DNA of 64,000 nt from Thermanaerosceptrum fracticalcis (GTDB taxonomy: Bacteria; Bacillota; Peptococcia; DRI-13): the NCBI RefSeq assembly GCF_000746025.2, contig NZ_CP045798.1, positions 124,001 to 188,000 on the forward strand, in the 5' to 3' direction. The translations under genes and the position numbers were made by a program. Every line of letters begins with the position of its first letter. The first letter of the stretch is position 1. The notes beneath the pieces were generated by a model, which was not told where the DNA came from, did not search any database, and saw only the letters and a list, made by a program, of their open reading frames with translations. Below are positions 42,355 through 60,421 of the stretch, in pieces.

Positions 42355-43119
42355 ATGAGGGATTTAAAAGCTATAGTTGAGGTAATTACGCAATATCTTG
42401 AGGAAACACAGCTTAACAGGGTTCCCGAATTAGGAAATATGAAAATCTATGATGGGCCCCTGGTGGGATTGGCCAATGCAGAAGATCCCTTGTTTGACAA
42501 GCTCAAGGAGCCCTCTGTGATAGGTCCCCATCACCTGAATCCTCAGGAATGGCTGCCGGGAGCCCAGACAGTTATTTCATATTTTCTCCCATTTAATGAG
42601 ACTGTCCGCAAGTCTAACAGGCTGGATCACTTACCATCTAAAGAGTGGCTGTACGGTCGCTATGAGGGTGAGTTGTGTAATGATGCCGTTCGTAGGTTTC
42701 TTAAGGAAGAAATCGAAAAAATGGGAGGAAAGGCGGTTATTCCTGTACAGGACGCCCGTTTCCAAGTAATTGATAAACGGAGCAACTGGTCGGAGCGGCA
42801 TGCCGCTTTTATTGCCGGGTTAGGTACTTTTGGGTTAAGTAAATCTTTGATTACGGAAAAGGGCTGCGCCGGGCGTTACGGAAGTATTGTCGTTAATCTC
42901 CGGTTTGAACCTACGCCGCGCTCCTATCTGAAAATTGATGAGTACTGTACAAAGTGCGGTGCCTGTATTGACCGCTGCCCTGCCGGGGCCATTACCGAAG
43001 CAGGAAAAGCCCATGAACCATGTTCTCGCTTTGTTGACGATACGAAGGTGCGTTTTGCCCCCCGTTACGGCTGCGGAAAATGCCAGACGGGAGTACCCTG
43101 CGAAAACACGAGACCCTAA
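42355..43119 (+). CDS. epoxyqueuosine reductase-like 4Fe-4S protein
   Basis: A 254-residue protein with a cobalamin-type reductase core (SNWSERHAAFIAGLGTFGLS) and a C-terminal double-cluster region: YCTKCGACIDRCPAGAI, then YGCGKCQTGVPCE. It resembles single-domain QueG relatives common in Clostridia; the actual substrate is unknown, and a tRNA role is not assured. ATG 42355 sits seven bases after GGAGG. The open frame begins upstream at 42211 but lacks a ribosome site. Confidence 0.75.
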   Translation: MRDLKAIVEVITQYLEETQLNRVPELGNMKIYDGPLVGLANAEDPLFDKLKEPSVIGPHHLNPQEWLPGAQTVISYFLPFNETVRKSNRLDHLPSKEWLYGRYEGELCNDAVRRFLKEEIEKMGGKAVIPVQDARFQVIDKRSNWSERHAAFIAGLGTFGLSKSLITEKGCAGRYGSIVVNLRFEPTPRSYLKIDEYCTKCGACIDRCPAGAITEAGKAHEPCSRFVDDTKVRFAPRYGCGKCQTGVPCENTRP

Positions 43120-43164
43120 ACCGGGTTTAAGCAAAACCCTTGGACTGTCAAAGATTGGTTTTGG

Positions 43165-44130
43165 AATGGCGCTGGGAGCATCGACGGCGTATAACGTTTC
43201 CCCCAATGTGAAATTAACCTATGACCGCTTGTTGAACAATGATGCTGTGAAGAAAGGTTTGGAATTTATTAAAGCCGATGATGCCAAGGCCCTGGCCGAA
43301 CAAAAACAGATTTGTGAGATTCCGTCTCCTCCCTTTTTGGCGGGAACGTAGGGGAAGAAGGCCTGGGCGATCTCCGTGGGGTAAAAGCCCTTTTCCAGGA
43401 TAACAAGGACATTGATGGATATATTTCCATTGATGGTACTGGTGCAAGCGGAATTTGTTATCTGGCTACCGGTAGCCACCGATTTGAAGTAACCTTTAAA
43501 GGTCCTGGTGGACACAGTTTTGGCGCCTTTGGAAAAGTTCCCAGCGCCATTCATGCTCTTGGCAGGGCTATCGCCAAGATTGCCGATTTCCAGGTGCCCA
43601 AGGATCCCAAAACTACGTTTACTGTGGGTGTAATAAGTGGCGGAACCTCTGTTAACTCTATTGCAGCAGAAGCCAAGATGTGGGTTGATATGCGTTCCAA
43701 TAGCGAGGATGAAGTCTGCAAAACTGAAGCCTTGTTTAGGAAAGCTGTACTAGATGCATATCTCGAGGAAAACACCCGTTGGAACACCGAGGCTAAGGTC
43801 TACCCTGTAATTCAACTTGTTGGTGACAGGCCCGCTGGTACGCAGCCTGACGATGCGCCCATTGTTCAGGCAGCCTGGCTTTCCACCAAGGCACTGGGGT
43901 TGGAGCCCGAACTGGAAGGCTCCAGCAGTACTGACTCTAACCTGCCCATTAGCTTGGGGATTCCTGCTGTAACCCTTGGTGCGGGCGGTAAATCCGGTAA
44001 TGGCCATTCGCCTAGTGAGTGGTATGATCCCACAGATGCCTACAAGGGGCCTCAGCAGATTTTTCTCACTATTCTTTTGTCAATAGCCTTTAACCATCAT
44101 GTGGCCCAATTGCGCGCGAATGCTCATTGA
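43165..44130 (+). pseudogene. M20-family peptidase with internal deletion
   Basis: Two blocks of an M20 (PepT/ArgE-like) metallopeptidase remain. The front block has NDAVKKGLEFIKADDAKALA and ICEIPSPPF. The second starts at NVGEEGLGDLRGVKALF, continues through SIDGTGA, GPGGHSFGAFGK and ends TDAYKGPQQ. Between them about 110 residues with the first zinc ligands (the HxDTV and DDKG blocks) are missing, and a TAG/TAA interrupts the joined frame. The C-terminal frame 43594-44130 is open but cannot be an active peptidase. Confidence 0.8.
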
Positions 44131-44307: not shown

Positions 44308-45525
44308 GTGAAGTTATCTACCAAAATACTCATCGGTCTTATCCTTGGTATTATTGCCGGTTTACTTCTTAGCAGTGCAACGGGATTCATCAAAACATGG
44401 ATTCAACCTTTTGGGACTTTATTTCTTAATTTAATAAAAATGGTAATTGTTCCCCTGGTTCTGGCCTCCCTGGTAGTAGGTGCAGCCTCCGTGGGCGATG
44501 TGAAAAAGTTGGGCCGTATCGGCGGCAAAACAATCAGCTATTATTTAGTTACAACCGCCCTTGCCGTTACCATAGGTTTGATTCTCGCCAATCTCCTAGA
44601 TCCCGGCTTCAACATGAAATTGCCTGCCGATGCCAAATATGCCGGGAAAGAAGCCCCGCCTCTTTCCCAAGTTCTCCTCAATATTTTCCCCACTAACCCC
44701 GTTGATTCAATGGTTCGTGCCGATATGCTGCAAATCATAGTCTTTGCCTTATTTTTAGGTATAGGCATCACTTTAATTGGGGAAAGGGCCAAACCTGTCT
44801 ATAATTTCTTTGACGGTTTGGCTGAGGTAATGTATAAAATTACTGGAGTAATCATGGAATTCGCCCCTATCGGTGTCTTTGCTTTAATTACCCCTGTTGT
44901 GGCTGTGAATGGGCCCAAAGTTTTAATCCCCCTGGCCAAGGTTATCGCTGCCGTATACATCGGTTGTTTGCTCCATGCTGCCGTCGTATACTCTACAGCC
45001 GTCAGGACTTTGGGCAACATGAATCCCCTTAAATTTTTCCAAGGTTTTTCCCCTGCCATGCTCATTGCTTTCACCACCTGCAGCAGTTCCGCTACCCTTC
45101 CCGTTTCTATGAAATCTGTGGAAGAGAACCTGGGTGTGGATAAAGATGTAGCCAGTTTTGTCCTGCCCCTGGGCGCAACGATTAATATGGACGGAACCGC
45201 CATCTATCAAGGTGTTTGTGCCGTCTTTGTAGCCCAGGTTTATGGCATGGACCTCACTCTTGGACAGCAACTGACTGTAATCCTCACGGGAACCTTGGCT
45301 TCCATAGGAGCAGCAGGGGTACCCGGCGCCGGTCTTATTATGCTGACCATGGTTCTCCAGTCTGTCAACCTGCCGTTAGAGGGCATTGCGCTCATTGCAG
45401 GTATTGACCGTATCCTGGATATGGCCCGGACAACAATCAACGTTACAGGAGACGCCAGTGCCGCTGTGATTGTTGATTATAGTGAAAAGAAGAGAGTTGC
45501 TAAATCCGGCAGTATGGTTGTGTAG
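44308..45525 (+). CDS. dicarboxylate/glutamate:cation symporter (DAACS)
   Basis: A 405-residue SLC1-type transporter with eight membrane segments and two hairpins. The hallmark regions are TTCSSSATLPVSMKSVEEN and LGATINMDGTAIYQGV, followed by MARTTINVTGDASAA, which binds the substrate carboxylate and sodium. It imports glutamate, aspartate or C4-dicarboxylates with H+ or Na+. The start is GTG 44308 after AAAGGGGG. It is a single-gene unit with a strong terminator. Confidence 0.92.
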   Translation: MKLSTKILIGLILGIIAGLLLSSATGFIKTWIQPFGTLFLNLIKMVIVPLVLASLVVGAASVGDVKKLGRIGGKTISYYLVTTALAVTIGLILANLLDPGFNMKLPADAKYAGKEAPPLSQVLLNIFPTNPVDSMVRADMLQIIVFALFLGIGITLIGERAKPVYNFFDGLAEVMYKITGVIMEFAPIGVFALITPVVAVNGPKVLIPLAKVIAAVYIGCLLHAAVVYSTAVRTLGNMNPLKFFQGFSPAMLIAFTTCSSSATLPVSMKSVEENLGVDKDVASFVLPLGATINMDGTAIYQGVCAVFVAQVYGMDLTLGQQLTVILTGTLASIGAAGVPGAGLIMLTMVLQSVNLPLEGIALIAGIDRILDMARTTINVTGDASAAVIVDYSEKKRVAKSGSMVV

Positions 45526-45575
45526 AGCTATTGTCTTTTAGTTTTAGTGTTTGTCTCCGGATTTATGATTTATTT

Positions 45576-45628
45576 ACAGTTCCTGGTATCGGTCAAGAAG
45601 CTGATACCAGGAACTGTATTTTTTTTTG
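45576..45628 (+). terminator. intrinsic terminator after the symporter gene
   Basis: A perfect 15-pair stem ACAGTTCCTGGTATC / GATACCAGGAACTGT is followed by ATTTTTTTTT. It isolates the following operon from read-through. Confidence 0.92.
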
Positions 45629-45723
45629 TATTTCATACACATTGTAAAGATTTTTATAAATAATTAGGATTAATGGGGTTGATTTTTTCTGGGCATGAAT
45701 GGCCGGCTTTTTATTTTGGTAGA

Positions 45724-45768
45724 TGCAATAATTGCACAAAGGCAATGGTAATTTGTGCAATTATTGCA
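45724..45768. promoter_or_regulatory. paired palindromic activator sites upstream of the sigma-54 promoter
   Basis: TGCAATAATTGCACAAA (45724-45740) and its exact reverse complement TTTGTGCAATTATTGCA (45752-45768) are separated by 11 bases. Each contains a 13-base palindrome-like core TGCAATxATTGCA; centres are 32 bases apart, about three helix turns, on the same DNA face. They lie about 45-90 bases before the -24 element, the right place for an NtrC-family activator. The candidate activator is the regulator at 53232. Confidence 0.65.
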
Positions 45769-45810
45769 TTAATTATTTGCCGTTTTCTTGGTTTTATGGC
45801 CCTTTTACAT

Positions 45811-45826
45811 TGGCATTATATTTGCA
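45811..45826 (+). promoter_or_regulatory. sigma-54 promoter (-24/-12) of the acyl-CoA operon
   Basis: TGGCATTATATTTGCA matches the sigma-54 consensus TGGCAC-N5-TTGCW, with GG and GC exactly 12 bases apart. It lies 39 bases before the first gene's start codon. Sigma-54 promoters need an activator with a GAFTGA loop; one is encoded seven genes downstream in the same direction. Confidence 0.7.
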
Positions 45827-45864
45827 ATATTAGAAAATTGAATTTTAAAAAAAGGGGTGAGTTT

Positions 45865-46653
45865 ATGGATTTTAAGAAAATCAAGTTTTCTATTTTCGAG
45901 GGTATTGCCTCAATCTTGCTTAACAGTCCCCAAAACCTCAATGCCCTTGATGGGGCCATGCTGGACGATCTCACTGCCGTCTTGGACCTTTGTGCCGATG
46001 ATGAAAAGGTAAAGGTTGTGGTGATTTCCGCGGAAGGAGAATCCTTTAGCGCAGGAGGGGACATCCGTATGATGCTGAAGGGACTGGAGGGGAATATGTC
46101 CGACCTCTATGGCGGGGTCCGTAAAGTAGGGTCGGCTGCCTTACGGATTCGTAACTTAAGAAAACCGGTCATTGCCTCCGTAAAGGGGGCGGCTGCCGGT
46201 GCCGGCTTTAACCTGGCGCTGCTTTGCGATTTCCGGGTGGCCGCGGATAATGCCAAATTTATTCAGGCTTTTGTCAATATTGGGCTCGTACCGGATATGG
46301 GCGGTACTTTCCTCCTTACCCGCATGCTGGGAGCGGCCAGGGCCACTGAACTGATTATGACGGGACGGCCTGTGACAGCCCAGGAAGCCCTGTCCCTGGG
46401 ACTGGTAAACAGGGTAGTAACCCTGGAAGAGCTGGACAAGGCCACCATGGAACTTGCCCAAAAGCTTTGTGCCCTTCCCGGCGTAGCCCTGGGCAATATG
46501 AAGGCACTCATCAATAGAGCTGTTTTCCAGGGTTTAGAAAACAGCCTGGACAACGAATGGGAATATCAGGTGCAGTGTTCCCGTACGGAAGATTTTAAAG
46601 AAGGCATTACAGCTTTTGCGCAAAAAAGAAAACCTGTTTTTAAAGGTAAGTAA
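45865..46653 (+). CDS. enoyl-CoA hydratase/isomerase family protein
   Basis: A 262-residue crotonase-fold enzyme. FSAGGDIRMMLKG forms the first oxyanion-hole loop and KGAAAGAGFNLALLCDFRVA the second, followed by GLVPDMGGTFLLTRMLG with the conserved acidic position. It hydrates enoyl-CoA or isomerises double bonds in fatty acid or amino acid catabolism. ATG 45865 follows AAAGGGGTGA; the frame opens 192 bases earlier across the promoter. It is the first gene of the sigma-54 operon. Confidence 0.9.
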   Translation: MDFKKIKFSIFEGIASILLNSPQNLNALDGAMLDDLTAVLDLCADDEKVKVVVISAEGESFSAGGDIRMMLKGLEGNMSDLYGGVRKVGSAALRIRNLRKPVIASVKGAAAGAGFNLALLCDFRVAADNAKFIQAFVNIGLVPDMGGTFLLTRMLGAARATELIMTGRPVTAQEALSLGLVNRVVTLEELDKATMELAQKLCALPGVALGNMKALINRAVFQGLENSLDNEWEYQVQCSRTEDFKEGITAFAQKRKPVFKGK

Positions 46654-46691: not shown

Positions 46692-47999
46692 ATGGACTGG
46701 AAAGAAATATACAAAAGCAAGCTGGTTGATTTTGCAGAAGCAGTAAAAGCTGTAAGATCAGGTGACAGCATCTGGGTTGCTCCTACTACCAGCTCGCCTC
46801 CGGATCTTGTTAATGCTTTATGCAACCGGGCAGAAGAATTAGAAAATGTAAATGTCTATTCCGGTTTGTTGATGTATCCTTTTGCTTTATTGAAACCAAA
46901 TTTTAAAGGTCATCTAAACTATCATACTTTTTTCCTGGGGCCTATTGAAAGAAAGTTTATGCCGCAAGGCAATGTTGATGTTATCTCAGTTCATTTTTCC
47001 AAGATTGATTGGATGATGAATAATATTGTCAAAGCCAGAGTATTGATGGCAGAGGTTTCACTTCCTGATGAAAGGGGTTACATGAGCTGGGGACCCCTGG
47101 GAACTTTCTGCAACGATCTTGTAGCTGACAATGCTGAGGTAGTTATGGTGCAGGTCAATAAAAATGTACCTTTTGTCTATGGGGAAAAGAATGTTATTCA
47201 CGTCAGTCAAGTTGACTATATTTGTGAAAAAGATCATCCCCTGCCTGAGCTGCCTAACAGCCCTGTTACAGAGATTGAAAAGAAAATTGCCGGGCATATT
47301 TTGCCCCATATCCCGGACGGAGCAACGGTTCAAATAGGGTTGGGTGGAATTGCCAATGCTGTGGGCTACGGTCTTGAAGACAAAAAAGATTTGGGTGTGC
47401 ATACGGAAATGCTTACTGAATCTTTGGTTTACCTGGCCAAGAAAGGAGTAATCAACTGCAGCAAAAAAAATTATTACAAAGGGAAAATGGTCTGCGGTTT
47501 TGGAATAGGCAACAAAGAGCTTTATGAATTTATGGACAGGAATCCTATGGTGCATGTGGCTCCAGTATACGAAGTGAACAATCCGTACAATGTAGCTCAG
47601 AACGATAATTTTATTTCCATCAATAATGCCTTGATGGTGGACCTTACCGGGCAGGTCTGTTCCGAATCTTTAGGTTTTGAACAGTTTAGCTGTACAGGGG
47701 GACAATTAGATTTCGTCAGGGCAGCGGCTATGTCCAAGGGAGGGAAATCTTTCATTGCTCTTTCTTCTGTAGTGGAAACAAAAAATGGATTACAGTCAAG
47801 AATTGTTTTGCAGTTTCCTCCTGGTTCAGTTATCACCACTCCCAGGTCTGATGTGCAGTATATTGTTACGGAATACGGCATAGCTGATCTCTACAACAAA
47901 AGCATAGCCCGGCGTGTCCATGAACTGGTAAAGATAGCTCATCCTGATTTCCGGGAACAGTTGCTTAAAGACGCAAAAGAAGCGGGCCTTCTTTACTAA
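46692..47999 (+). CDS. acetyl-CoA hydrolase / acyl-CoA:acetate CoA-transferase family
   Basis: A 435-residue family I CoA-transferase (Cat1/Cat2/4-hydroxybutyrate CoA-transferase type): VQIGLGGIANAVGYGL, HTEMLTESLV, GFGIGNKELYEFMD, then EQFSCTGGQLDFVRAA and YIVTEYGIADL. It would swap CoA between acetyl-CoA and an acid such as butyrate, activating substrate without ATP. ATG follows AAGGAGG. It sits in the operon between a hydratase and a dehydrogenase. Confidence 0.88.
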   Translation: MDWKEIYKSKLVDFAEAVKAVRSGDSIWVAPTTSSPPDLVNALCNRAEELENVNVYSGLLMYPFALLKPNFKGHLNYHTFFLGPIERKFMPQGNVDVISVHFSKIDWMMNNIVKARVLMAEVSLPDERGYMSWGPLGTFCNDLVADNAEVVMVQVNKNVPFVYGEKNVIHVSQVDYICEKDHPLPELPNSPVTEIEKKIAGHILPHIPDGATVQIGLGGIANAVGYGLEDKKDLGVHTEMLTESLVYLAKKGVINCSKKNYYKGKMVCGFGIGNKELYEFMDRNPMVHVAPVYEVNNPYNVAQNDNFISINNALMVDLTGQVCSESLGFEQFSCTGGQLDFVRAAAMSKGGKSFIALSSVVETKNGLQSRIVLQFPPGSVITTPRSDVQYIVTEYGIADLYNKSIARRVHELVKIAHPDFREQLLKDAKEAGLLY

Positions 48000-48045: not shown

Positions 48046-50397
48046 ATGAATTACAGTATAAGCAGAGCTGCCGTACTTGGTGCTGGAGTTATGGGAGCAG
48101 GCATTGCAGCTCACCTGGCGGGGGCAGGAATTCCTGTCCTGCTCCTGGATATGGTGCCTAGTGAGCTTACTGAAAAAGAAAAAGCTCAGGGATTAACTTT
48201 GAATGCCAAAGAAGTACGCAACCGATTGGCTCAGTCTGGCAAGAACAGGGTTCTTGACGAAAAAAGCAGGGCCATTTATGACAAAGACCTGGGAGCAATA
48301 ATACAGGTGGGTAATTTTGAAGATGATATGCACCTGCTTAAAGAGGTGGACTGGATTATTGAAGCAGTTACGGAGAGGTTGGACATCAAACAAAAACTGC
48401 TAGATCAGGTGGCCCGGTATCGCAAGCCGGGAACTATCGTCAGTTCTAATACTTCCGGAATCTCTATCAATAAAATGGTAGAAGGTTTTCCCTTGGAGTT
48501 CAGACAGCATTTTCTGGGAACCCATTTTTTTAATCCCCCTCGCTGGATGAAGCTCCTGGAGATTATCCCATGTGAGAATTGTTTGCCAGAAGTTGTGGAG
48601 TTTATGAAAACCTTTGGATGTAAAAGGTTGGGAAAAGGGATTGTAGTGGCCAAGGACACGCCCAATTTTATAGCCAACCGCTTAGGAACCTATGCTTATC
48701 TGCAGATAATCAAGAAAATGCTGGACTACGGTTACAGCATTAACCAAATTGATGAGCTGACGGGACCAGTTATGGGCAGGCCCAAAAGCGCTACTTTCCG
48801 TACCCTGGATATGGTGGGGCTTGACACCTTTTGCCATGTGGCCAACAATGTGGTAAACAATGTGGACAGTCCATCAGAAAAAGAGAATTTTGCTCCCCCG
48901 GTTTTTGTGAAAACAATGCTGGAGAAGGGAGCCCTGGGGGATAAGGCCGGCCAGGGCTTCTATAAAAGGATAAAAGGTGAAAAAGGAAGCGAAACCCTGG
49001 TCTGGGATTATCAAAAAGAAGAGTATGTGCCCCTGGTCAAAGAATCATTAAAGGCCGTAGAATCGGCCATGAAAGAGAAAACTTTGGAGGGAAGGATTAA
49101 TGCTCTCATAGATGGTGAGGAAAAAGAAAACCGGTTTGCATGGGAGGTGACTAAGAAAACCTTGCTTTATGCCGCTCAGATGGTCCCTGATCTTGCCGAT
49201 AATTTCAAGGATATCGATAATGCCCTGGTATGGGGTTTTAACTGGGAGTTAGGCCCGTTTGCCCTGTGGGATGCTATTGGCCTGGAAAAGTCAGTGGGGC
49301 GAATGAAAACAGAGGGAGAAGCAATTCCGGCTTGGATCGAAAAAATGTTGGCTTCCGGTAGGAGCAAGTTTTATGACCAGGCTGAAAAGCATGTTGCCCC
49401 CTATATTGTTCTTGCCTCTGGAAAATATAAAACTTTAAAACTTAATAATGACGCTGCTCTACTGGATATTGGCGATGGGGTAGCTTGTCTGCAGTTTCGT
49501 TCTAAAAACAACACAGTCACAGATTTGGTTATTGAAATGATTTATGAGGCTGTGGAGGAAGTTAAGAAAAACTATCTGGGTTTGGTGCTTGGCAATCAGA
49601 GCAAAAACTTTTCTGTAGGAGCAAACTTAAATCTTATTGGCAAGTTGGCTATGGAGAAAAAGTTTGAAGAATTGGGCAGGATAGTGGAAAATTTTCAAAG
49701 AGCCAATCTGGCTTTAAAATACAGTTATAAGCCCGTTGTTGCAGCACCATACGGGATGACTCTTGGCGGAGGAGCCGAAATAACCATGCATGCCCATGCT
49801 GTAACAGCCGGTGCAGAAACATATATGGGCTTGGTAGAAGTCGGGGTAGGATTAATCCCTGCGGGTGGCGGTACAAAAGAAATGCTTTTAAAAAGCACTC
49901 AAGAGTTGGCAGGCAACCCTCAGAACGATCTTTTACCTGAGTTGCGCAGGGCCTGGGAAACTATTGCCTCGGCCAAGGTCTCCAGCAGTGCTCATGACGC
50001 TGTGAAGAAAGGTTACCTGAGGCCCAGTGACAGAATTGTCATGAATCAGGATTATTTGCTTGATGAGGCGAAAGATACGGTGCTGTTCCTAGCCGAAGGT
50101 GGATTCAGGCCTTTGCTTAAAAAGCCGGTTAAGGTTTTGGGGACTTCGGGAAGGGCCTCGCTGCAATACAGTATAGATTTTATGCATAAAGGCGGCTTTA
50201 TTACAGAATATGATGCCCATATCGCCAAGATGATTGCCTGGGTTATGACGGGAGGGGATGTGCCGGCCGGGGTTCTGGTCACTGAAGAACAAATCCTGGA
50301 ATTGGAAAAAGAGGCTTTCCTGAGTTTGTGCGGTGAAAGCAAAACCTTGCAGAGGATAGAACATATGCTGAGCACAGGTAAACCTTTGAGAAACTGA
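48046..50397 (+). CDS. 3-hydroxyacyl-CoA dehydrogenase / enoyl-CoA hydratase fusion (FadN-like)
   Basis: A 783-residue two-part enzyme. Residues about 5-320 are an NAD-dependent 3-hydroxyacyl-CoA dehydrogenase (VLGAGVMGAGIAAHLAGAG; SSNTSGISI; GTHFFNPPRWMKLLEII) with a second dehydrogenase lobe to about 440. From about 470 a crotonase-like domain follows (NQSKNFSVGANL; GMTLGGGAEITMHAHA). The order, dehydrogenase first, is that of Bacillus FadN and opposite to E. coli FadB. ATG 48046 follows GAGGGATGG. It carries out the two middle steps of beta-oxidation. Confidence 0.9.
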   Translation: MNYSISRAAVLGAGVMGAGIAAHLAGAGIPVLLLDMVPSELTEKEKAQGLTLNAKEVRNRLAQSGKNRVLDEKSRAIYDKDLGAIIQVGNFEDDMHLLKEVDWIIEAVTERLDIKQKLLDQVARYRKPGTIVSSNTSGISINKMVEGFPLEFRQHFLGTHFFNPPRWMKLLEIIPCENCLPEVVEFMKTFGCKRLGKGIVVAKDTPNFIANRLGTYAYLQIIKKMLDYGYSINQIDELTGPVMGRPKSATFRTLDMVGLDTFCHVANNVVNNVDSPSEKENFAPPVFVKTMLEKGALGDKAGQGFYKRIKGEKGSETLVWDYQKEEYVPLVKESLKAVESAMKEKTLEGRINALIDGEEKENRFAWEVTKKTLLYAAQMVPDLADNFKDIDNALVWGFNWELGPFALWDAIGLEKSVGRMKTEGEAIPAWIEKMLASGRSKFYDQAEKHVAPYIVLASGKYKTLKLNNDAALLDIGDGVACLQFRSKNNTVTDLVIEMIYEAVEEVKKNYLGLVLGNQSKNFSVGANLNLIGKLAMEKKFEELGRIVENFQRANLALKYSYKPVVAAPYGMTLGGGAEITMHAHAVTAGAETYMGLVEVGVGLIPAGGGTKEMLLKSTQELAGNPQNDLLPELRRAWETIASAKVSSSAHDAVKKGYLRPSDRIVMNQDYLLDEAKDTVLFLAEGGFRPLLKKPVKVLGTSGRASLQYSIDFMHKGGFITEYDAHIAKMIAWVMTGGDVPAGVLVTEEQILELEKEAFLSLCGESKTLQRIEHMLSTGKPLRN

Positions 50398-50413: not shown

Positions 50414-51592
50414 ATGAAAGAAGCAGTAATTGTGGCTTGTGGCCGCTCGGCTATAGGCAAAGCCCCAGGGGGCCAATTAAAATATACAAGACCTGATGAA
50501 ATTGCGGCCCAGGTTGTGCAGGGGGTAGTTAAACGCATCCCACAGCTGGATCCCGGAAAAATAGATGATTTTGTCCTTGGCTGTGCCTTCCCGGAAGCTG
50601 AACAGGGAATGAACCTGGCCAGAATAGTGAGCCTGAGGGCAGGTTTGCCGGTAGATGTGCCCGCTCAGACTATTAACAGATTTTGTTCCTCAGGTCTGCA
50701 ATCTGTCGCCACCGCAGCCCATAGCATCATGGCAGGGCAGACTAATGTTGCCTTGGCTGGTGGAGTAGAGTCCATGAGCACCATACCAATGGGGGGGAAC
50801 CGGATTTCTCCTAACCCTTATCTTATGGAGAATTATCCTGAAACATATTTGGCTATGGGTTTGACAGCAGAAAGAGTTGCTGAAAAATACGGTGTCACCA
50901 GGGAAATACAAGACCGTTTTGCCTTGGAAAGTCATCTTAAAGCGGCGCAAGCCCAGTCGGAAAATAAGTTTGCGGAAGAAATAATACCGGTAAAAGCCCT
51001 TAGACCCGTTGCTGACCAGTCAGGTATGATGAGAAGTGAGACTTTTATTTTTGAAAGAGATGAAGGTATACGTCCTGATGTGAGTTTGGAAGGATTAAGC
51101 AAATTAAGACCTGTTTTTAAGACTAATGGTACAGTTACAGCGGGCAACTCCTCGCAGATGAGCGATGGGGCGGCAGCAGTATTACTTATGTCTCAAGGGG
51201 CTGCCCGGGAAATAGGGGTAAAACCTCTTGCTTTGTTCAGATCTTTTGCCGTAGCGGGAGTAGAACCGGAAGTAATGGGCATTGGTCCTGTAAAGGCGAT
51301 TCCTAAAGCCCTAAAGATTGCAGGTATAAATAAAGAGGATCTTGATCTTATAGAATTGAATGAAGCCTTCGCTGCCCAGGCTGTTGCCTGCATCAAAGAG
51401 CTTGATTTGGATCCCGGAAAAGTAAATGTTAATGGAGGCGCAATTGCTTTGGGGCATCCCTTGGGTTGTACAGGAACCTTTCTTCTGGTCAAGCTGCTTT
51501 CTGAATTAACACGCAGGAAGGGTCGCTATGGTCTTGTCAGTATGTGTATAGGCGGAGGCATGGGTGCAGCAGCGGTATTTGAACTTTGCTAA
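50414..51592 (+). CDS. acetyl-CoA C-acyltransferase (thiolase)
   Basis: A 392-residue thiolase with the nucleophilic Cys in [45 protein letters not shown] and the C-terminal [13 protein letters not shown]. It splits 3-ketoacyl-CoA to acetyl-CoA or runs in reverse. It begins 16 bases after the dehydrogenase gene behind GGGGGTGA and is the last enzyme gene of the operon before a hairpin. Confidence 0.93.
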
Positions 51593-51645
51593 TAACTAGG
51601 GATTATGACCCGGGACCCTTTGGCGAGGGCACGGGAGCATACTTA

Positions 51646-51681
51646 AAATACACCACAAGCTTTTGGGCTTGTGGTGTATTT
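51646..51681 (+). terminator. hairpin after the thiolase gene
   Basis: A perfect 15-pair stem AAATACACCACAAGC / GCTTGTGGTGTATTT with loop TTTTGG. The T-run is only three bases beyond the stem, so termination may be partial, letting some transcript reach the kinase gene. Confidence 0.65.
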
Positions 51682-51753
51682 GTCAGAAGTTATGTGATAA
51701 AATTTTAATTAAGATTATTAAGAAAAATAGCATTTTTTCATGGGGGACTTTGT

Positions 51754-53217
51754 ATGTATTATAAGGACGTCAGCTGCTATGCCCAAAATTCCCTAAAAAA
51801 AATCGAAGGCCTGGGCCTGGGGGAGATTATCCCGGTGGATTGGATGGCCATTATTACCGTTTCCAAGCGGGGCAGATTAATTTTTGAAGGGGAGATTGAC
51901 TATAGCAATATTGGGCCTTACCTCCATGAATACCTTAAAACTCACATGGCTGAGATATATCGTATTAATGACGTCAGCCTTGCTGCCAACAACAACGAAA
52001 GAGAAAGCCTGGATATAATTCTTTCTCCCATTCGTGAAGAGGAAAATTATAAGGTCTTTTTTGTTGTGGCTGGGAAAAATTTAAGATATAGGGAAAAAGA
52101 TTTAAAAATTGTACGCTTTACTACTAAGATTGTTTATGAAAATGTGTTGCTGAATAATGAAATAGTTCAGGAAAAAAATTATCTGCGCAATATTTTTGAC
52201 AGCACTGAATCAGCCATTATCAGCATTGATTTGCAGGGAAAAATCACAACGGCCAATAAAGCTGTTAAAGCAGTTTTTGGCATAGAGCCGGAGAAAATTG
52301 TAGGGAACAACTATGAAAGATATTTGGGCGGCAAGGCGAGAAAAGTCTTGGAGGAAGGGATGTCATACGTCCAGGAACACAACAATAGTTTTTTAGCCAG
52401 GGAAATATTGTTTACAAATAAATTTCGCGGCAAAATTGTTTTGGACATAGCCTTTACTCCTTTGAACGACAGTAAAAAAAATGTTGTCGGTATTGTCCTG
52501 ATTATTAGGGATGTTACCAATAAAAGGGTCCTTGAACGGGAGCTGGAGCAGTTAAAACAGTTTGCAATCCTGGGTGAACTGGCAGCAGGTATCGCCCATG
52601 ATATTAAAAATCCTTTAATGAATATCCGCGGCTGTGCCAGGATTTTGGAGAAAAGTTTATTACATCAACCAGGCTGCCAGGAATTCCTGGAGCCTATCAT
52701 TCATGAAGTGGACAGGATAAACGAAGTTGTGGAACAAATGCTTTCTTATGTCGATATTACTAAACAAAACAGTTATGCTCTCCTCAATATCAATGAAGTA
52801 TTAAATAAATGTTATAATGTTATTCTTTGCCATAAAGAATCAAAGCATATTGTGATCGAGAGGGATTTAGCCAGTGAACTCCCTCTGATTAGAGGAAATA
52901 ATGTCCAGCTGCAGCAGGCTTTCGTTAACATCCTCCTTAATGCAGTCCAATCCATAGAAAAGGAAGGGATGATAAGAATCATCAGCAGTGATATTTCCGG
53001 TGAAAAAAGAATACTTATCAGCATAATTGATAATGGAATTGGAATTTCTCCCCGGGAGATTGGCAAGATATTTGCACCCTTTTATTCCACCAAAAAAAAT
53101 GGCACAGGGCTGGGGCTTTCTATTGTCGAAAAGGTAATTAAGGAGCATAAGGGTGAAATTAAAATTAATTCCAAGTGTAACCAGGGAACCAGGGTCGATG
53201 TATTTTTGCCTTACTAA
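51754..53217 (+). CDS. PAS-domain sensor histidine kinase (NtrB/AtoS-like)
   Basis: A 487-residue soluble kinase with no membrane segments. Residues 1-140 are an unassigned input region, about 145-265 a PAS domain (STESAIISIDLQGKITTANK), then an H-box with H282 in GIAHDIKNPL. The ATPase has an N-box around NILLNAVQS, G1 in IDNGIGIS and G2 in GTGLGLSIV. It probably senses an intracellular metabolite of the upstream acyl-CoA pathway and phosphorylates the regulator that starts within its stop region. The ligand is unknown. Confidence 0.9.
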   Translation: MYYKDVSCYAQNSLKKIEGLGLGEIIPVDWMAIITVSKRGRLIFEGEIDYSNIGPYLHEYLKTHMAEIYRINDVSLAANNNERESLDIILSPIREEENYKVFFVVAGKNLRYREKDLKIVRFTTKIVYENVLLNNEIVQEKNYLRNIFDSTESAIISIDLQGKITTANKAVKAVFGIEPEKIVGNNYERYLGGKARKVLEEGMSYVQEHNNSFLAREILFTNKFRGKIVLDIAFTPLNDSKKNVVGIVLIIRDVTNKRVLERELEQLKQFAILGELAAGIAHDIKNPLMNIRGCARILEKSLLHQPGCQEFLEPIIHEVDRINEVVEQMLSYVDITKQNSYALLNINEVLNKCYNVILCHKESKHIVIERDLASELPLIRGNNVQLQQAFVNILLNAVQSIEKEGMIRIISSDISGEKRILISIIDNGIGISPREIGKIFAPFYSTKKNGTGLGLSIVEKVIKEHKGEIKINSKCNQGTRVDVFLPY

Positions 53218-53231
53218 TGAGAGGTAGCCAT

Positions 53232-54575
53232 ATGACTAAATATAGAATACTTGTTGCTGATGACGAGGAGATTATTTTAAGGATATTAAGCCGGGAGTTA
53301 AAAAATGAAGGTTACCTGGTAGATGCGGTTTCCGACGGGGAGGAGGCCTGCAAAAAAGTGCAGGCCAATAGATATGATGCCGCTGTCCTTGATATTAGAA
53401 TGCCTAAAAAAGACGGTATACAGGTATTAAATCATATCAAAAGCATTACCCCTGAGACGATTGTTGTTATTATGACTGCTTTCGGTACAATTGATAATGC
53501 TGTGGAAACCATGAAAAAAGGGGCTTACGATTATATCACCAAGCCTTTCGACAACAATGATTTACTGCTTAAAATAAGGCAGGCCTTTACGATTAAGGAG
53601 AAGATTGGCCAATTAGTGGGAGGGGCCGATGACCTGGATGTGGACTTGGTTGGTGAGAGCAGGGAGTTGGCTAGATTAAAAGAGAAAATCCAGAAGATAA
53701 AGGACCTGGATACCACTGTATTACTGACGGGAGAAAGCGGTACAGGAAAAAGCCTGGTGGCCAAGGTTATCCATCAGGCGGGAAACCGCAAGGAGGAGCC
53801 TTTTATTCATATTAACTGCGCGACCCTTCCTGCTAATCTCATGGAAAGTGAACTTTTTGGCCATGAAAAGGGAGCTTTCACTGGGGCCTTGGAGAGTAAA
53901 AAGGGTAAATTTGAACTGGCGGGGAAAGGGACGATTTTTCTTGATGAAATCAGCACCTTGACTCCCAGCTTACAGGCTAAACTTCTAAATGTTTTACAGG
54001 AGAAAAAAATGGAACGGATTGGCGGTTCCAGATCAATAGCAGTGAACGCACGGATTATTGCTGCTACTAATGAAATCCTGGAAGACCTGGTTAGAAGAAG
54101 GGTTTTCAGGGAGGACCTTTATTACCGGATAAATGTTGTTACTCTGGAGTGTCCACCTTTACGTTACCGGCAAGAAGATATAGAACCGTTGGCGCGATAC
54201 TTTCTAAATAAAATCAACAAAAAACTTGGTAAGAATGTGGTTAATATTTCCCCAGAAGTAATGTGTATTTTGAGGAATTATGACTGGCCCGGAAACATAA
54301 GGGAGCTGGAAAATACTCTGGAGAGCGCTATAGCCCTGGCAAACGGTGATACTCTGCATGAAGACGATTTGCCTTTAAGGATCAGCAGCAAAGTAAAAAA
54401 CCAGAATGTTTTGGAAGTACAGGATAATCGGCCGGGTATGCTAGAAATTCAGGAAATCGAGGCCATCAAAAGGGTTCTGGCAAAGTATAAAGGTCACAGG
54501 GAAAAAGCCGCCCAGGAACTGGGTATTTCTAGGAGAACTTTACAGTATAAACTTAAGAAATATGATTTATTATAA
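53232..54575 (+). CDS. NtrC-family sigma-54 response regulator (AtoC-like)
   Basis: A 447-residue activator. The receiver has phospho-acceptor D54 in VLDIRMP. An AAA+ domain carries GESGTGKSLVAK, the sigma-54 contact loop GAFTGA and LDEIS. A Fis-type helix-turn-helix ends the protein (EKAAQELGISRRTLQYKLKK). ATG 53232 is seven bases after GAGAGG; ATG 53217 overlaps the kinase stop but lacks a site. It is the obvious partner for the -24/-12 promoter at 45811. Its TAA lies inside the left end of the IS1634 element. Confidence 0.93.
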   Translation: MTKYRILVADDEEIILRILSRELKNEGYLVDAVSDGEEACKKVQANRYDAAVLDIRMPKKDGIQVLNHIKSITPETIVVIMTAFGTIDNAVETMKKGAYDYITKPFDNNDLLLKIRQAFTIKEKIGQLVGGADDLDVDLVGESRELARLKEKIQKIKDLDTTVLLTGESGTGKSLVAKVIHQAGNRKEEPFIHINCATLPANLMESELFGHEKGAFTGALESKKGKFELAGKGTIFLDEISTLTPSLQAKLLNVLQEKKMERIGGSRSIAVNARIIAATNEILEDLVRRRVFREDLYYRINVVTLECPPLRYRQEDIEPLARYFLNKINKKLGKNVVNISPEVMCILRNYDWPGNIRELENTLESAIALANGDTLHEDDLPLRISSKVKNQNVLEVQDNRPGMLEIQEIEAIKRVLAKYKGHREKAAQELGISRRTLQYKLKKYDLL

Positions 54576-56629
54576 CCCAACTTTGACACCGGCCTTGAAA
54601 ATAAAGGGGCCTGTAGGGGTAATTTTCACTACAGCCCCTCAAGGGATGCTATTCTTTAACTAGCACCTTGGGTGGCAGCGGGAGCTCCAACACCCCCAGT
54701 ATCTTCTTTTGCGCCTCACCAGGCAGGGTGATGCTGTAAAGCCTTTTGTCTATGAACTGTTGGTCAACAGCCTTGATCTCGTCCAATTCCTCTAAGATCC
54801 GGCGACCGCTTCTATAAGAACTTTTGAGCTGTTTCAGTTCTTTCTCCCGGGTCTCATTATCCGTGATTGATTTGGCCCTTTGGATTTCGTTCTCCACATG
54901 GCGCCGGTATAGCACCTCCAGCCACTGCTCAAATAGATAGGCCAGCACACAGATCAGGACGTGGGCCCGTACCCGGTGCTCATTGTAATGGTAGATGGGG
55001 CGTAATCGGATAAAATCCTTGATCTCCCGGAAGGCGTTTTCTGCTTGCATCAGGTTCTTGTAAGCGGTGACTACCTGGTCCGCCGGAAGGAGGGAGTTGG
55101 TCTTTAACAGGAATTTACCGTCCCGTAAGGACTCCTTGTCAATAGCGGTCTGGTTTCTTTGCCAGTTTAGGCGTTTGTTGCCGTCATAGTCGATGTCAAA
55201 GAAACGAGCCATCCCTTTCCGGTTTAGGAGGTCTGCCACCTTAAGCATGATACTTTTGGCCGTGGGCTTTCGTCCCCGCCGCGGTTCTTCTTTTTCCAGC
55301 CATTCCTTCAGGTGCTGTAATTGTGCTTCGGCTTCCTGGAGCGCTTGTTCCCTGAAGGCCTGGTCTTCTGCCACCTTGGCCGGGTTGTGGCACAAAATGT
55401 AGCGTACCAGGTAATCTTCTTCATTTTCAGCCGCGTCTTCTGCCGGTACTTTGGCAGCCGGGATTTCCTTGTACAGTAAAGACCCTTCTTCTCCCAGGGG
55501 CGTGTACTGGCTCAGGTCCTGGTACTCCTCTAAAAGTTGGTCGCTGACTTCCCGCCCCCGTTTATGAAAACCGACAATATACCGAAACCCGGCTTCTTTC
55601 AAGGCTCGGAGGTTATCTTGGGTAATCATACCCCGGTCACCGACAAAAACACATTCGCCTACCTCAAACCTTTCGCTTAGTACCTTGATGGCATCAGGCA
55701 CCGTGGTTTTATCGGCCACGTTTCCCTCAAAAACCTGGTGGGCGATAGGAATACCTTCAGGCGTCACTAATAATCCGATGTTAATCTGAGGCCGGTCGGG
55801 GCGATGTTCCCGGGAATAACCGTGCTTACTAAGCGGGCAATGGGTACCCTCAAAATAACTGCTGGTCAAATCGTAGAACACCAGGGTAAGTTTCAAGCTT
55901 AATAGATCCGTCAGTTGTAAGTACAGGTGCCGCTCCAATGCATCTTTCATTTCTTCAAGGTAGTCCATGGCCCGGTAGAAGTGGTGTACATCCGGTAAAG
56001 GCCGCCCCTCTAGTTCCTCCAGGTACAGTCGGTGTACCCAGCGGGCCACTCCCAATTTGCTCTTGGGAGCGATCAGGCGGTTTAATACCAAAATCTTGGT
56101 GCATAAGGCCACATCCACTTCCACCTGGCGGTCTTTAAGCAGCGAATTGATGAACTCGGTAAGACCCAATCGGTCCCAGAAAACATTCACTACGTATGGA
56201 ATGCCATAATGTTTATCTCCGTACGTAGTCAAGTCCTGAGTGGTCCCGTAGGGATCGTCGTGCAGAAACTCCCGCAGTTTATCAATGAGCCGACGGATTT
56301 CCTCCTGGCTGTAGAGATCAATGTTGCCAAGATTGCCCACCTGGCGCTGCTTGATCTTGCCGTTTTCCCGGTAAGATTCTACCAAGGTCAGGTAACGATA
56401 GGTCCGGTCCTTGCGTTTTGTAGTGATAATTCTGGGGAACAAGGGGCGCATCACCTCCGCATGGTTCACATTACCATTATAGCAGGTGACCGTCGATAGT
56501 TGAAGAGGTTACGGTAAAATGGTTTTCACTACGTTTTTGAACTTTTTCCGGAACCAGACCCTTGAAAACATTGGGTTTCCGGGCCCTGAACCCCCTAAAA
56601 ATGGCGTTTTACTGTCAAAGTCGGGTTAT
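54572..56629 (-). mobile_element. IS1634-family insertion sequence
   Basis: Terminal inverted repeats ATAACCCAACTTTGACA (54572-54588) and, reversed at 56613-56629, ATAACCCGACTTTGACA bound a 2.06-kb element with one transposase. It sits between the response regulator and that gene's apparent terminator at 56663. I could not settle the target duplication because both flanks are AT-rich. Confidence 0.85.
54649..56469 (-). CDS. IS1634-family transposase
   Basis: A 606-residue DDE transposase. The front end (TYRYLTLVESYRENGKIKQR) and DDE regions (LVFYDLTSSYFEGTH; VFVGDRGMITQDNL; AENAFREIKDFIRLRPIYHY) are those of IS1634. The start is GTG 56469; ATG 56451 has GGAGG too close. The frame is intact, so the element may be active. 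Confidence 0.92.
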   Translation of the reverse strand: MNHAEVMRPLFPRIITTKRKDRTYRYLTLVESYRENGKIKQRQVGNLGNIDLYSQEEIRRLIDKLREFLHDDPYGTTQDLTTYGDKHYGIPYVVNVFWDRLGLTEFINSLLKDRQVEVDVALCTKILVLNRLIAPKSKLGVARWVHRLYLEELEGRPLPDVHHFYRAMDYLEEMKDALERHLYLQLTDLLSLKLTLVFYDLTSSYFEGTHCPLSKHGYSREHRPDRPQINIGLLVTPEGIPIAHQVFEGNVADKTTVPDAIKVLSERFEVGECVFVGDRGMITQDNLRALKEAGFRYIVGFHKRGREVSDQLLEEYQDLSQYTPLGEEGSLLYKEIPAAKVPAEDAAENEEDYLVRYILCHNPAKVAEDQAFREQALQEAEAQLQHLKEWLEKEEPRRGRKPTAKSIMLKVADLLNRKGMARFFDIDYDGNKRLNWQRNQTAIDKESLRDGKFLLKTNSLLPADQVVTAYKNLMQAENAFREIKDFIRLRPIYHYNEHRVRAHVLICVLAYLFEQWLEVLYRRHVENEIQRAKSITDNETREKELKQLKSSYRSGRRILEELDEIKAVDQQFIDKRLYSITLPGEAQKKILGVLELPLPPKVLVKE

Positions 56630-56704: not shown

Positions 56705-56852
56705 TGTTGACTAATTACTTATTAAAGGAAAAGAGAAATTTGTATCGAATATTTTTGAAATATAGTAATGGTAAATTATAGATATATATGGCGTATAACC
56801 AATAGGTTCTACAATTTTACATTTGTTTATTTTGATGCCGAGGAGGACATAT

Positions 56853-58113
56853 ATGAAGCATTCTGGGAATGAATTGGAACATTTATTGGAGCGAGAAAGA
56901 AGAGCTAAACTAATTTGTGCTGCGCTTAATAATTTTGTGGATTTAAAGTCTAATTTAATTAACGTTCTAAAACATATCAAGGAACTAACAGGTTGTGAAG
57001 CAGTGGGTGTCCGGCTACATGATGGCGAGGATTATCCTTATTACATATATAAAGGCTTTCCCGAGTTATTTATTCAAAAAGAAAATAGCTTATGTTTCAA
57101 AGATAATACTGGTAATAAAATACCTGCTCCTGATGGAAAAGGCTATTTGCTGGAGTGCTTGTGTGGATGCGTTATTAAGGGAAACACTGATTCTTCCTTA
57201 CCCTTCTTTACAAAACATGGCAGCTTTTGGTCAAATGATATGTCAAGACCATGGGGAGAGAAGCTTGAGCTCAGATCCAGAAACTACTGTAAGGCTTGTG
57301 GATATGAATCTGTTGCTTTAATTCCGATTAAAGCCAGAAATGAACGGTTTGGACTCGTTCAACTAAATGATATGCGAAAAGGTATGTTTAGTGAGGAACT
57401 AATCGAGTTCATGGAAATGATTGGTGAACAAATTGGGCTCGCGGTACAGAACAGTTTAATATATACCAAGCTGGAAGAAGCAAATAAATATACAAAAGAG
57501 ATACTCGACAATTTACCTATTGCCCTAACTACTTATGACAGTAATTTCAGGTTAACCTTTGCAAACCGAAAAGCTCAAGAAATAACTGGGTATCAGTTAG
57601 GTGAAATGGAAGGACTATCTGATAAAGAAATAGCCAATATGGTGTATAGAGTTGAAAATAATAACAAATCCCTTCTCAGAGAGTTAACGGGAAGTATAAA
57701 TACAATAAAAAATAGAATTAGAACCATTAAAACAAGAAGTGGTGATTGTCTCAAAATAAGTGTCGACGCTTATAAATTAGAAAATGGTGGATTTCTCTAC
57801 TTATTTGACGAAGCAAAAAGAGTACAGGGATTAGAGAACTTACAGCTGCAAACTCAGACCATATTAAACTCTGTAAGTAATCTTGTGTTAATGATTGACA
57901 GCAATGAGACAATAATTATGTGCAATACTGCTTTGGAAGAGGCAGTAGAAATGGATGCCGAAGATATTTTGGGTATGAATATACTTGATTTTATGGAAAT
58001 GATACAGTTTAGCAGAAAGGATCTCGCAAATAAAGACTTAAATGAAAGTGATATCAATGCTACATATGAAGCGTCATTTATTACTCCTAACGGCAATAAA
58101 AAGGAAATAATTA
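56853..58113 (+). pseudogene. GAF/PAS histidine kinase, N-terminal part (interrupted by IS3 copy 2)
   Basis: About 420 residues: a GAF domain (residues about 15-205) with unusual cysteines in LECLCGCVIKGNTD and NYCKACGYESVALIPI, a PAS domain from about 222 and a second PAS from about 335. ATG 56853 follows GAGGAGG. At 58114 the IS3 copy enters, and its sequence supplies the stop. The kinase half lies beyond the IS at 59642. The intact gene would encode roughly 680 residues. Confidence 0.85.
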
Positions 58114-58430
58114 TGGTGGCTAAAGATGTCAAGACATTTTTTTGACCTTGTTTAAGGTGGTTTTTCTCCCTCCTTAGTGTATTTTGTAAGTAAAATATTG
58201 TTAATAATAACATTTGTTAACTGGTAATTATGTAACATTTTACCAGACAAAATACTACCTGACTCCTGTTCGTCAAGTTCGTAATCGACGTACTGACTCT
58301 TAGCGACCACCAGGGAGCTTAGAGTCAGTAGGAGGCTTCGAACTTGACGGAGTAGCCAGGATTATACTGGTCAGAGGGGGGTTGGACACCAGAGTGGCCA
58401 ATACCCCCTAAATGCTCTATAATCCTCGGC

Positions 58431-59261
58431 TTAATAGACTCGAAATGTTATTTGGAAGTGTTCCAAGGTATAATTGCCGAAGTAGACTTCGGCCGGAGTC
58501 AAATTTTTCAGTGCCTGATGCGGCCTGTAGTTGTTGTATTTTTCAAAGAACCTGGCAAGACCGAGACGGGCTTCACGGGGGCTTGTATAGTCGTTTATGT
58601 AGACCTCCTGGTACTTAACTGTACGCCAGAGTCTCTCGGTAAAAATGTTGTCCATAGCACGACCTCGCCCGTCCATGCTGATTTTGATCCCTTTACTCAG
58701 TAATGCTGTGGTATACCGCTCGCTAGTAAACTGGCTTCCCTGGTCACTGTTGGCAATCTCAGGCTTGCCAGTCCGCAATGCCCTATGGAGAGCTTCCAGC
58801 ACAAAATCGACTTCAAGAGTACAGTCCAGTTCCCAGGCTACTACGAACCTCGAGAACCAGTCTAGAAAAGCCACCAGGTACAACCAGCCCTTTCTGAGGC
58901 GGATAAAGGTGATATCAGTACCCCAAATGTGGTTGGGGAAGGATGCCTTAACGCCGCGAAGCAAATAGGGATAGACTTTATGCTCGTGGTTCCGGCGGCT
59001 GAGGTTCGGCCCTGGCCTGATTGCAGATATCCCCATTTCCCGCATATACTTCTGTACCGTGGGTCGACTGATGCAAAAGCCTTCCCGGTTCAGAATCGCG
59101 GTAATCGGGCGAGAACCCAAGTAGGGGTCCTCCGTATAAATGCGGTCGATTCTATGCTTGATAGCAATTTCCAAAGGCGATGGTGGTACTGGCCGGTAAT
59201 AAAGACTCGAACGGTTGAGCGAAAGTAGTTCTGCCTGAGCTGTTAATGGTAGCTCGGGTTC
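58431..59261 (-). CDS. IS3-family transposase OrfB, copy 2 (same start lesion as copy 1)
   Basis: Product identical to copy 1: DDE integrase core with WGTDITF, NSDQGSQF and FTERLWRTVK. The conserved upstream residues ELPLTAQAELLSLNRSS are in frame without a start codon, and the preceding RAERIELVDFENP is in another frame, exactly as in copy 1. Confidence 0.8.
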   Translation of the reverse strand, partial: EPELPLTAQAELLSLNRSSLYYRPVPPSPLEIAIKHRIDRIYTEDPYLGSRPITAILNREGFCISRPTVQKYMREMGISAIRPGPNLSRRNHEHKVYPYLLRGVKASFPNHIWGTDITFIRLRKGWLYLVAFLDWFSRFVVAWELDCTLEVDFVLEALHRALRTGKPEIANSDQGSQFTSERYTTALLSKGIKISMDGRGRAMDNIFTERLWRTVKYQEVYINDYTSPREARLGLARFFEKYNNYRPHQALKNLTPAEVYFGNYTLEHFQITFRVY

Positions 59262-59291
59262 TCAAAATCCACCAGTTCAATTCTTTCAGCT

Positions 59292-59591
59292 CTAGTCCAA
59301 TTTGAGGCCAGATTTTTTTTTAAGCCAGTTGAGCTTAGTTGTCAACTCGCCAATCTCTGCATAAAGTTCTTGAATCTTGTTCTTTAAGGTCTCTTTCTCC
59401 TTGTCACCCTTTCTGCGACCATCTTCAAGAACTTCCACCAGAGCACCTATTGCCTCTTTCTTCCATTTAAGCAATTGATTTGGATGTATCTCATACTCCG
59501 AAGCAATCTGGGATATGGTTTTTTCTTCCTTGAGAATTTCCAGTACAACCTTGGCTTTAAACTCCCCAGAATATGATTTTCTCATGGTCAC
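59292..59591 (-). CDS. IS3-family transposase OrfA, copy 2
   Basis: A 99-residue protein identical to 26912-27211: helix-turn-helix followed by a leucine-rich coiled coil, ending at the nine-A run that can support frameshifting into OrfB. Confidence 0.9.
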   Translation of the reverse strand: MTMRKSYSGEFKAKVVLEILKEEKTISQIASEYEIHPNQLLKWKKEAIGALVEVLEDGRRKGDKEKETLKNKIQELYAEIGELTTKLNWLKKKSGLKLD

Positions 59592-59641: not shown

Positions 59642-60421
59642 TAAATACTGCAATTTGCGCCTATTCATAACGTGGATGGAGAACTTATCGGAGTAATTGT
59701 TGTGGCTTCCGATATAACAATATTAAAGAAGGAACAACAAAGAGAGCAACAACAAGAAAAACTCGCTTTATTGGGGCAAATGGCCACCGGTATTGTTCAT
59801 GAAATAAAAAATCCCTTAACTTCAATATTGGGGTTCAGCCAAGTCATTACTCTGAAGTCCCAGGATGAAAAAATTAAGGGATATGCTCGCCTTATAGAAA
59901 TAGAAGTCCATGGGCTTAATAAGATAGTCAGTGATTTTTTGGCTTTCGCTAAGCCCCGCTCCCCTATATTAAATGAAGTTTCATTAAATGATATAGTTGA
60001 TTCTATGAAGTTAATGCTGGAAACCAATGTAGTTGGCAAAGGGATAAAAATAAGCTATCACCTTGGGGAAAATATCAAGCCAGTTATGGCCGATGAAAAT
60101 CAGATTAAACAAGTGATTTTAAATATTGTAAAAAATGCAATCGATGTATTAAAGGGCACAGATAATCCGGAAATAAAGATCAGTTCCGGATATAGTCAAA
60201 TAATGAATGAAAGCTTTATAACTATATTTAATAACGGGAAGAGTATGTCAGAAGAAGAAAAAAGAATGGTTGGAACGCCATTCTTTACAACAAAAAAGAA
60301 AGGGACAGGTTTGGGATTGAGTATTTGTCATCAAATCATGAAAGAACATGGAGGAAGAATAGATTTTGAAAGTGAACCAGGCATAGGAACATCTTTTACC
60401 CTGCATTTGCCAACGTGTTGA
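59642..60421 (+). pseudogene. GAF/PAS histidine kinase, C-terminal part
   Basis: Continues the gene broken at 58113: end of a PAS domain (FAPIHNVDGELIGVIVVASD), H-box GIVHEIKNPLTSILGFSQV, an N-box region and GTGLGLSICHQIMKEHGG. GTG 59672 could start a 249-residue kinase core without sensor. Joining the two halves after removing the IS and one TTA puts them in different frames, so a second one-base lesion exists near 59656. Confidence 0.85.

Follow-up and report, generated by a model that had tools for sequence, protein, structure and literature searches.

The acyl-CoA operon in the 64-kb stretch of DNA analysed here (the window) is preceded by an exact sigma-54 promoter element and a pair of inverted upstream sites, and genes for a sensor histidine kinase and an NtrC-family response regulator lie at its 3' end. 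We consider it likely that these parts make up a pathway-specific two-component switch of the AtoSC type, in which the kinase-regulator pair acts on the operon via the paired sites and sigma-54. Judged from its elements, the leader of the operon is a genuine, well-formed regulatory region, and the switch most likely turns on the acid-degrading operon once the sensor pair encoded at the operon end is activated.

Table 1. Features of the operon, its leader and the adjoining regulatory genes (positions in the window)
Feature	Position	Strand	Remarks
Intrinsic terminator of the upstream SDF-family symporter gene (44308-45525)	45575..45618	+	19-pair stem, then T run
Upstream activating site 1 (candidate), ATGCAATAATTGCACAAA	45723..45740	.	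core 45724-45736; perfect inverted copy of site 2
Upstream activating site 2 (candidate), TTTGTGCAATTATTGCAT	45752..45769	.	core 45756-45768; perfect inverted copy of site 1
Sigma-54 -24/-12 element TGGCATTATATTTGCA	45811..45826	+	exact consensus; predicted transcription start ~45837
Crotonase-fold gene, PaaG/FabM-like enoyl-CoA isomerase (probable)	45865..46653	+	PF00378; hydratase Glu positions are Asn/Phe
Butyryl-CoA:acetate / 4-hydroxybutyrate CoA-transferase family	46692..47999	+	TIGR03948 362.7 bits, below cut-off 674.8; best solved relative 3eh7
FadB-type 3-hydroxyacyl-CoA dehydrogenase/enoyl-CoA hydratase fusion	48046..50397	+	Pfam/NCBIfam; crotonase domain with both catalytic Glu
Acetyl-CoA acyltransferase (thiolase)	50414..51592	+	PF00108/PF02803; TIGR01930 above cut-off
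Soluble sensor histidine kinase: GAF-like N-terminal domain, PAS, HisKA, HATPase	51754..53217	+	Pfam; AtoS model 284.5 < 646
NtrC-family response regulator: receiver, GAFTGA AAA+, Fis HTH	53217..54575	+	PF00072, PF00158, PF02954

The sigma-54 promoter and the inverted site pair

The -24/-12 element is the only exact match to TGGCAYN5TTGCW in the window, and its GG and GC are 10 bp apart. The same pattern occurs 43 times in the whole genome, compared to no matches for the reversed control pattern, and the genome has one rpoN (PF04552 match, E 1.1e-62). The exact -24/-12 spacing named in the original prediction was thus confirmed. An AGGGG-type ribosome-binding site precedes the ATG at 45865. 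On the upstream side, a strong predicted terminator would separate the symporter gene from the operon. The open reading frames 42935-43351 and 43594-44130 look like parts of one M20-type peptidase gene, and the region 42935-44130 is possibly a frameshifted pseudogene.

The two candidate activating sites form arms of 18 nt each, which are 100% complementary and have 11 nt between them. Each arm contains TGCAATWATTGCA; the 13-bp palindrome in the arm reads TGCAATAATTGCA or TGCAATTATTGCA. Two exact inverse copies of a 17-base site had been predicted; the perfect inverted pair is real, with an arm length of 18 rather than 17 nt. Dinucleotide shuffling of 45641-45811 (171 bp), repeated 1000 times, gave a perfect inverted arm of at most 14 (mean 6.8), compared to the 18 observed. 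Long inverted pairs as such are not exceptional in this genome, as arms of 17 and 19 bases are found at other sigma-54 promoters (L194 and L197, respectively). The centres of the two cores (45730 and 45762) are separated by 32 bp, or ~3.05 helical turns, in agreement with the predicted location of both sites on one helix face. The pair ends 41 bp upstream of the -24/-12 element and spans 41-88 bp from the -24 element.

A genome search for paired copies of the core before other -24/-12 sites had been proposed together with the prediction. The exact core TGCAATNATTGCA has three copies in the 3,805,411-bp genome, two of which are the pair at 45723-45769. The third copy (L003) lies inside a D-3-phosphoglycerate-dehydrogenase-like gene and, being in coding sequence, was dismissed as an operator. 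Among 60 relatives the exact operator pair occurred only in the own genome, and the looser TGCA-N5-TGCACA..TGTGCA-N5-TGCA was likewise restricted to it among 398 genomes of the phylum, but both patterns are too strict for finding relatives, as G004, a related genome of the same order that was included in the set of 60, differs in spacing.

The operon enzymes and the regulatory proteins

Genes were assigned with Pfam and NCBIfam models, and scores were compared with curated cut-offs. Of the predicted gene content, the CoA-transferase, dehydrogenase/hydratase, thiolase, PAS kinase and GAFTGA regulator were all found, while the first gene, predicted to encode a hydratase, lacks the hydratase glutamates. 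Its product has Asn and Phe in the two catalytic Glu columns of the crotonase fold, both of which are occupied by Glu in E. coli PaaF and in the FadB domain. Its VPD aligns with the IPD of E. coli PaaG, which contains the catalytic Asp of the (L/I)PD motif, and with that of Thermus relatives. The best curated model was FabM (231.4, below the cut-off of 400). Since both hydratase Glu residues are absent, the PaaG-type Asp is present and the FadB domain keeps both Glu residues, the first gene probably encodes an enoyl-CoA isomerase, and FadB would supply the hydratase step.

The operon contains no acyl-CoA dehydrogenase gene; eight matches are located elsewhere in the genome. Unsaturated or 3-hydroxy short-chain acids (crotonate, vinylacetate, 3-hydroxybutyrate-like) would for this reason fit the operon better than saturated ones, unless one of the eight dehydrogenases is borrowed. 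Five of these eight genes have an exact -24/-12 site at most ~1.5 kb upstream (genome coordinates), and many acyl-CoA operons of this genome are probably under sigma-54 control.

The kinase has no membrane helix, as no 19-residue segment scored above 1.6 on the Kyte-Doolittle scale; the same test gave two such regions in E. coli AtoS and two in the kinase of a second, AtoC-like locus of the same genome (L212). The model of the N-terminal domain (pLDDT 74) matched GAF domains in the PDB with a best TM of ~0.5, and with moderate confidence we regard the domain as GAF-like. Of 398 phylum genomes, only the own genome gave a match to this sensor domain, which is weak evidence of absence because G004 was neither among the listed members of the sample nor reported as a match. 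The regulator has an ortholog in G004 (54-56% identical), the next relative found being 48% identical. In the phylogenetic tree these two form a pair of their own (support 100/100), apart from the well-supported group holding the L212 regulator; the position of E. coli AtoC has a support of 42/78 only.

A hairpin of 14 bp (~51645-51682) is located between the thiolase and kinase genes and is followed by TTTGTC, not by a clear T run, making it a possible partial terminator. Because of this hairpin the regulator may be transcribed separately from the enzymes, with limited read-through. A large transposase-like gene (54649-56469) is found directly behind the regulator gene, and further downstream an IS3-like element (58431-59591) appears to interrupt a gene for a GAF/PAS histidine kinase (parts at 56823-58145 and 59672-60421).

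In the mechanism that we propose, the soluble GAF-like/PAS kinase would sense a cytoplasmic cue and phosphorylate the regulator. The regulator would then bind the inward-facing TGTGCAATTATTGCA pair, whose centre lies ~91 bp before the predicted start, probably as two dimers seeding a hexamer, and remodel the sigma-54 RNA polymerase at the -24/-12 element. As a result the isomerase, CoA-transferase, FadB and thiolase genes would be switched on, and read-through would possibly activate the kinase and regulator genes too, as a feedback. A short-chain enoate or 3-hydroxyacid would in this way be converted via CoA transfer to acetyl-CoA.

Related loci and alternative readings

The locus in G004 (Clostridia MAG record JAHDSB010000083.1, L094) has the order kinase, regulator, leader, MFS transporter, ECH, CoAT, FadB and thiolase. 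Its kinase-regulator pair, the only ortholog found of the pair in the window, lies directly upstream of a sigma-54 promoter, the -24/-12 element of which (GGGCATGTTCCTTGCA) has one mismatch from the consensus. The G004 leader carries three copies of the half-site TTGTGCAA, a number reached in none of 20000 shuffles, and the leader of the window carries two. Of 5000 paired shuffles, 20 produced an 8-mer with two or more G/C that was repeated in each of the two leaders. The G004 sites TGTGC-N5-GCACA and TGCA-N6-TGCA share the half-site of the window, but not the exact spacing. A contig scan with the CoA-transferase alignment found G004 again and one further MAG contig (L095, 55%), which has no regulator pair.

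Counting G004, sigma-54-like elements precede the same operon in four other genomes. In G155, G326 and G303 the same enzymes are located behind the -24/-12 elements TTGGCATAAGGTTTGCA, TTGGCATAAATATTGCA and TTGGCCCTAATGTTGCA, respectively. The neighbouring activator in G155 is a PAS protein of the one-component type, the operon of G326 is preceded by a gene for a sigma-54 activator, of which the architecture was read in part, and the contig of G303 begins too near the operon to show any regulator. The motif TGTGCAA-N3-5-TGCA, which site 2 fits, is absent from all three of these leaders. Operons that have a two-component regulator of the AtoC-like kind carry it, i.e. those of the window, G004, the AtoC-like locus of the own genome, its sister species and E. 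coli atoD, and it occurs at 3 of the 30 own-genome sigma-54 promoters examined, compared to 0.014 expected from shuffles. The motif was defined after viewing the window and E. coli sites, and G004 and the sister species are thus the more independent cases. The regulator can be tied to the site because the orthologous pair of G004 shares the half-site, while the three genomes with the same enzymes and a one-component or unseen regulator are without the motif.

The AtoC-like locus of the own genome (L212:1487-7694; G000:C1:1547486-1553693) resembles AtoSC-atoEDA and has a sigma-54 promoter of its own. It shares with the window a kinase, a regulator, a CoA-transferase operon and a promoter with a TGTGCA...TGCACA site, here AGTGTGCA-N6-TGCACACT (TGTGCA-N6-TGCACA). 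It differs in having a membrane kinase (688.1 bits, above the AtoS cut-off of 646), an AtoE-type transporter, a CoA-transferase of two subunits and a regulator of another clade. Another sigma-54 promoter, accompanied by TTGTGCAAAAATGCACA, is found at L199/L211 (L211:7606-12178; G000:C1:1962605-1967177) upstream of an HpaB/4-hydroxybutyryl-CoA dehydratase-like gene, the gene of a second CoA-transferase and that of an adjacent PAS-type sigma-54 activator. Its site matches the motif while the regulator beside it is of the PAS type, which counts against our reading of the window. It is a tentative idea, and rather unlikely in full, that one genome carries two parallel AtoC-type circuits, the AtoSC-atoEDA locus and a diverged version with a soluble kinase, which have the half-site TGTGCA in common and are separated mainly by one base (N5 compared to N6), and that the L199 CoA-transferase operon may be a further target of the window regulator.

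With L212 present, the paired sites of the sigma-54 promoter could be bound by another activator, most plausibly the L212 regulator, or by both regulators. The two regulators are 43% identical and have similar helix-turn-helix sequences (GISRRALHYKL in L212 and GISRRTLQYKL in the window), and the L212 promoter carries the related site described above. The core spacings are nevertheless one base apart, G004 links the window-type regulator to the operon directly, and a matching regulator gene is located directly behind the operon of the window, all of which makes such cross-binding unlikely. Even less probable in our view is that the pair, instead of being an activator site, serves a repressor or some other DNA-binding protein as operator for control of the sigma-54 promoter or of a sigma-70 promoter. 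A pair of perfect palindromes would suit any dimeric regulator and weak sigma-70-like matches overlap 45804-45838, but the position of the pair relative to the -24 element, the inverted arrangement, which E. coli atoD also has, and the repeated TTGTGCAA beside the orthologous G004 regulator suit an enhancer site better. That the pair is only a hairpin or a transposon relic is very improbable, for although long perfect inverted repeats can give rise to hairpins and insertion sequences are found nearby (from 54649 on), each arm is itself palindromic, no T run follows, the pair is upstream of the predicted start and it matches motifs at other AtoC-type promoters. Activation by the adjacent kinase-regulator pair remains our preferred reading.

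Comparison with AtoSC and clostridial sigma-54 regulons

The leader site of E. coli atoD (leader sequence GCTATGCAGAAATTTGCACAgtGCGCAATTTTCTGCATAGC) has been identified experimentally as an inverted AtoC site (PMC3118216). When the inward-facing pairs of E. coli (TGTGCAAATTTCTGCAT) and of the window (TGTGCAATTATTGCAT) are both read outward, the spacing differs by one base and the spacers by a few letters. The core had originally been put forward as a new operator, and a literature search for the exact motif letters gave no match; because the inward-facing aTGCA-N5/6-TGCACA arrangement is shared with the E. coli AtoC operator, however, the operator is on comparison of the sites of AtoC type and not a new class.

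Further features in common with E. coli AtoSC and atoDAEB are the NtrC-type two-component regulator and the sigma-54 promoter (PMC3118216), the location of the inverted pair of (A)TGCA-N5/6-TGCACA, with TGCA half-sites, upstream of the operon, and an operon with CoA-transferase and thiolase genes for short-chain acids. The window enzymes, in contrast, include a single-chain CoA-transferase, the FadB fusion and an isomerase, whereas E. coli has AtoDA and AtoE. The kinase is soluble with a GAF-like domain, unlike the membrane sensor AtoS, and the kinase and regulator genes are at the 3' end of the operon, unlike in E. coli. The window core is one base shorter and its centres are 32 bp apart, compared to ~19-21 in E. 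coli.

Of the AtoSC-like circuit for short-chain acids that had been predicted, the sigma-54 promoter, the inverted pair as an enhancer site, the acyl-CoA/CoA-transfer operon and the AtoSC-like logic are supported, and the ortholog in G004 as well as the atoD operator of E. coli add to this support. Strict membership of AtoSC, on the other hand, was rejected: both proteins are below the curated cut-offs (the regulator scored 441.3 and that of L212 545.2, both below the AtoC cut-off of 714), there is no membrane sensor, the regulator belongs to a clade separate from that of the L212 regulator, and a better AtoSC-atoEDA locus exists elsewhere in the genome.

In Clostridiales, comparative genomics has led to the inference that sigma-54 controls operons for butyrate, butanol and CoA-transferases, and sigma-54 bound in vitro (PMC6615313). 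These regulons, with activators such as CrbR, AhcR and XcgR, have the promoter consensus TTGGCATNNNNNTTGCT, and most activators adjoin their target (PMC6615313). Beta-oxidation enzymes have been reported to be over-represented in the sigma-54 regulons predicted for Clostridia and Bacilli (PMC12316311). The window has in common with the Clostridiales regulons the predicted sigma-54 control of an acyl-CoA operon, multiple upstream sites, the promoter consensus and an activator gene next to the target (PMC6615313). Many of the Clostridiales activator groups use TGT-N10-12-ACA, which the window sites do not fit, and their sites are mostly 100-250 bp upstream (PMC6615313), compared to 41-88 bp from the -24 element in the window.

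The finding leaves the general picture unchanged, the switch being well-formed but ordinary, and it provides a concrete operator/target pair for gel shift. The AtoC-type operator, known from E. coli, would be extended to a lineage of clostridial relatives and linked there with a separate regulator clade and a soluble sensor.
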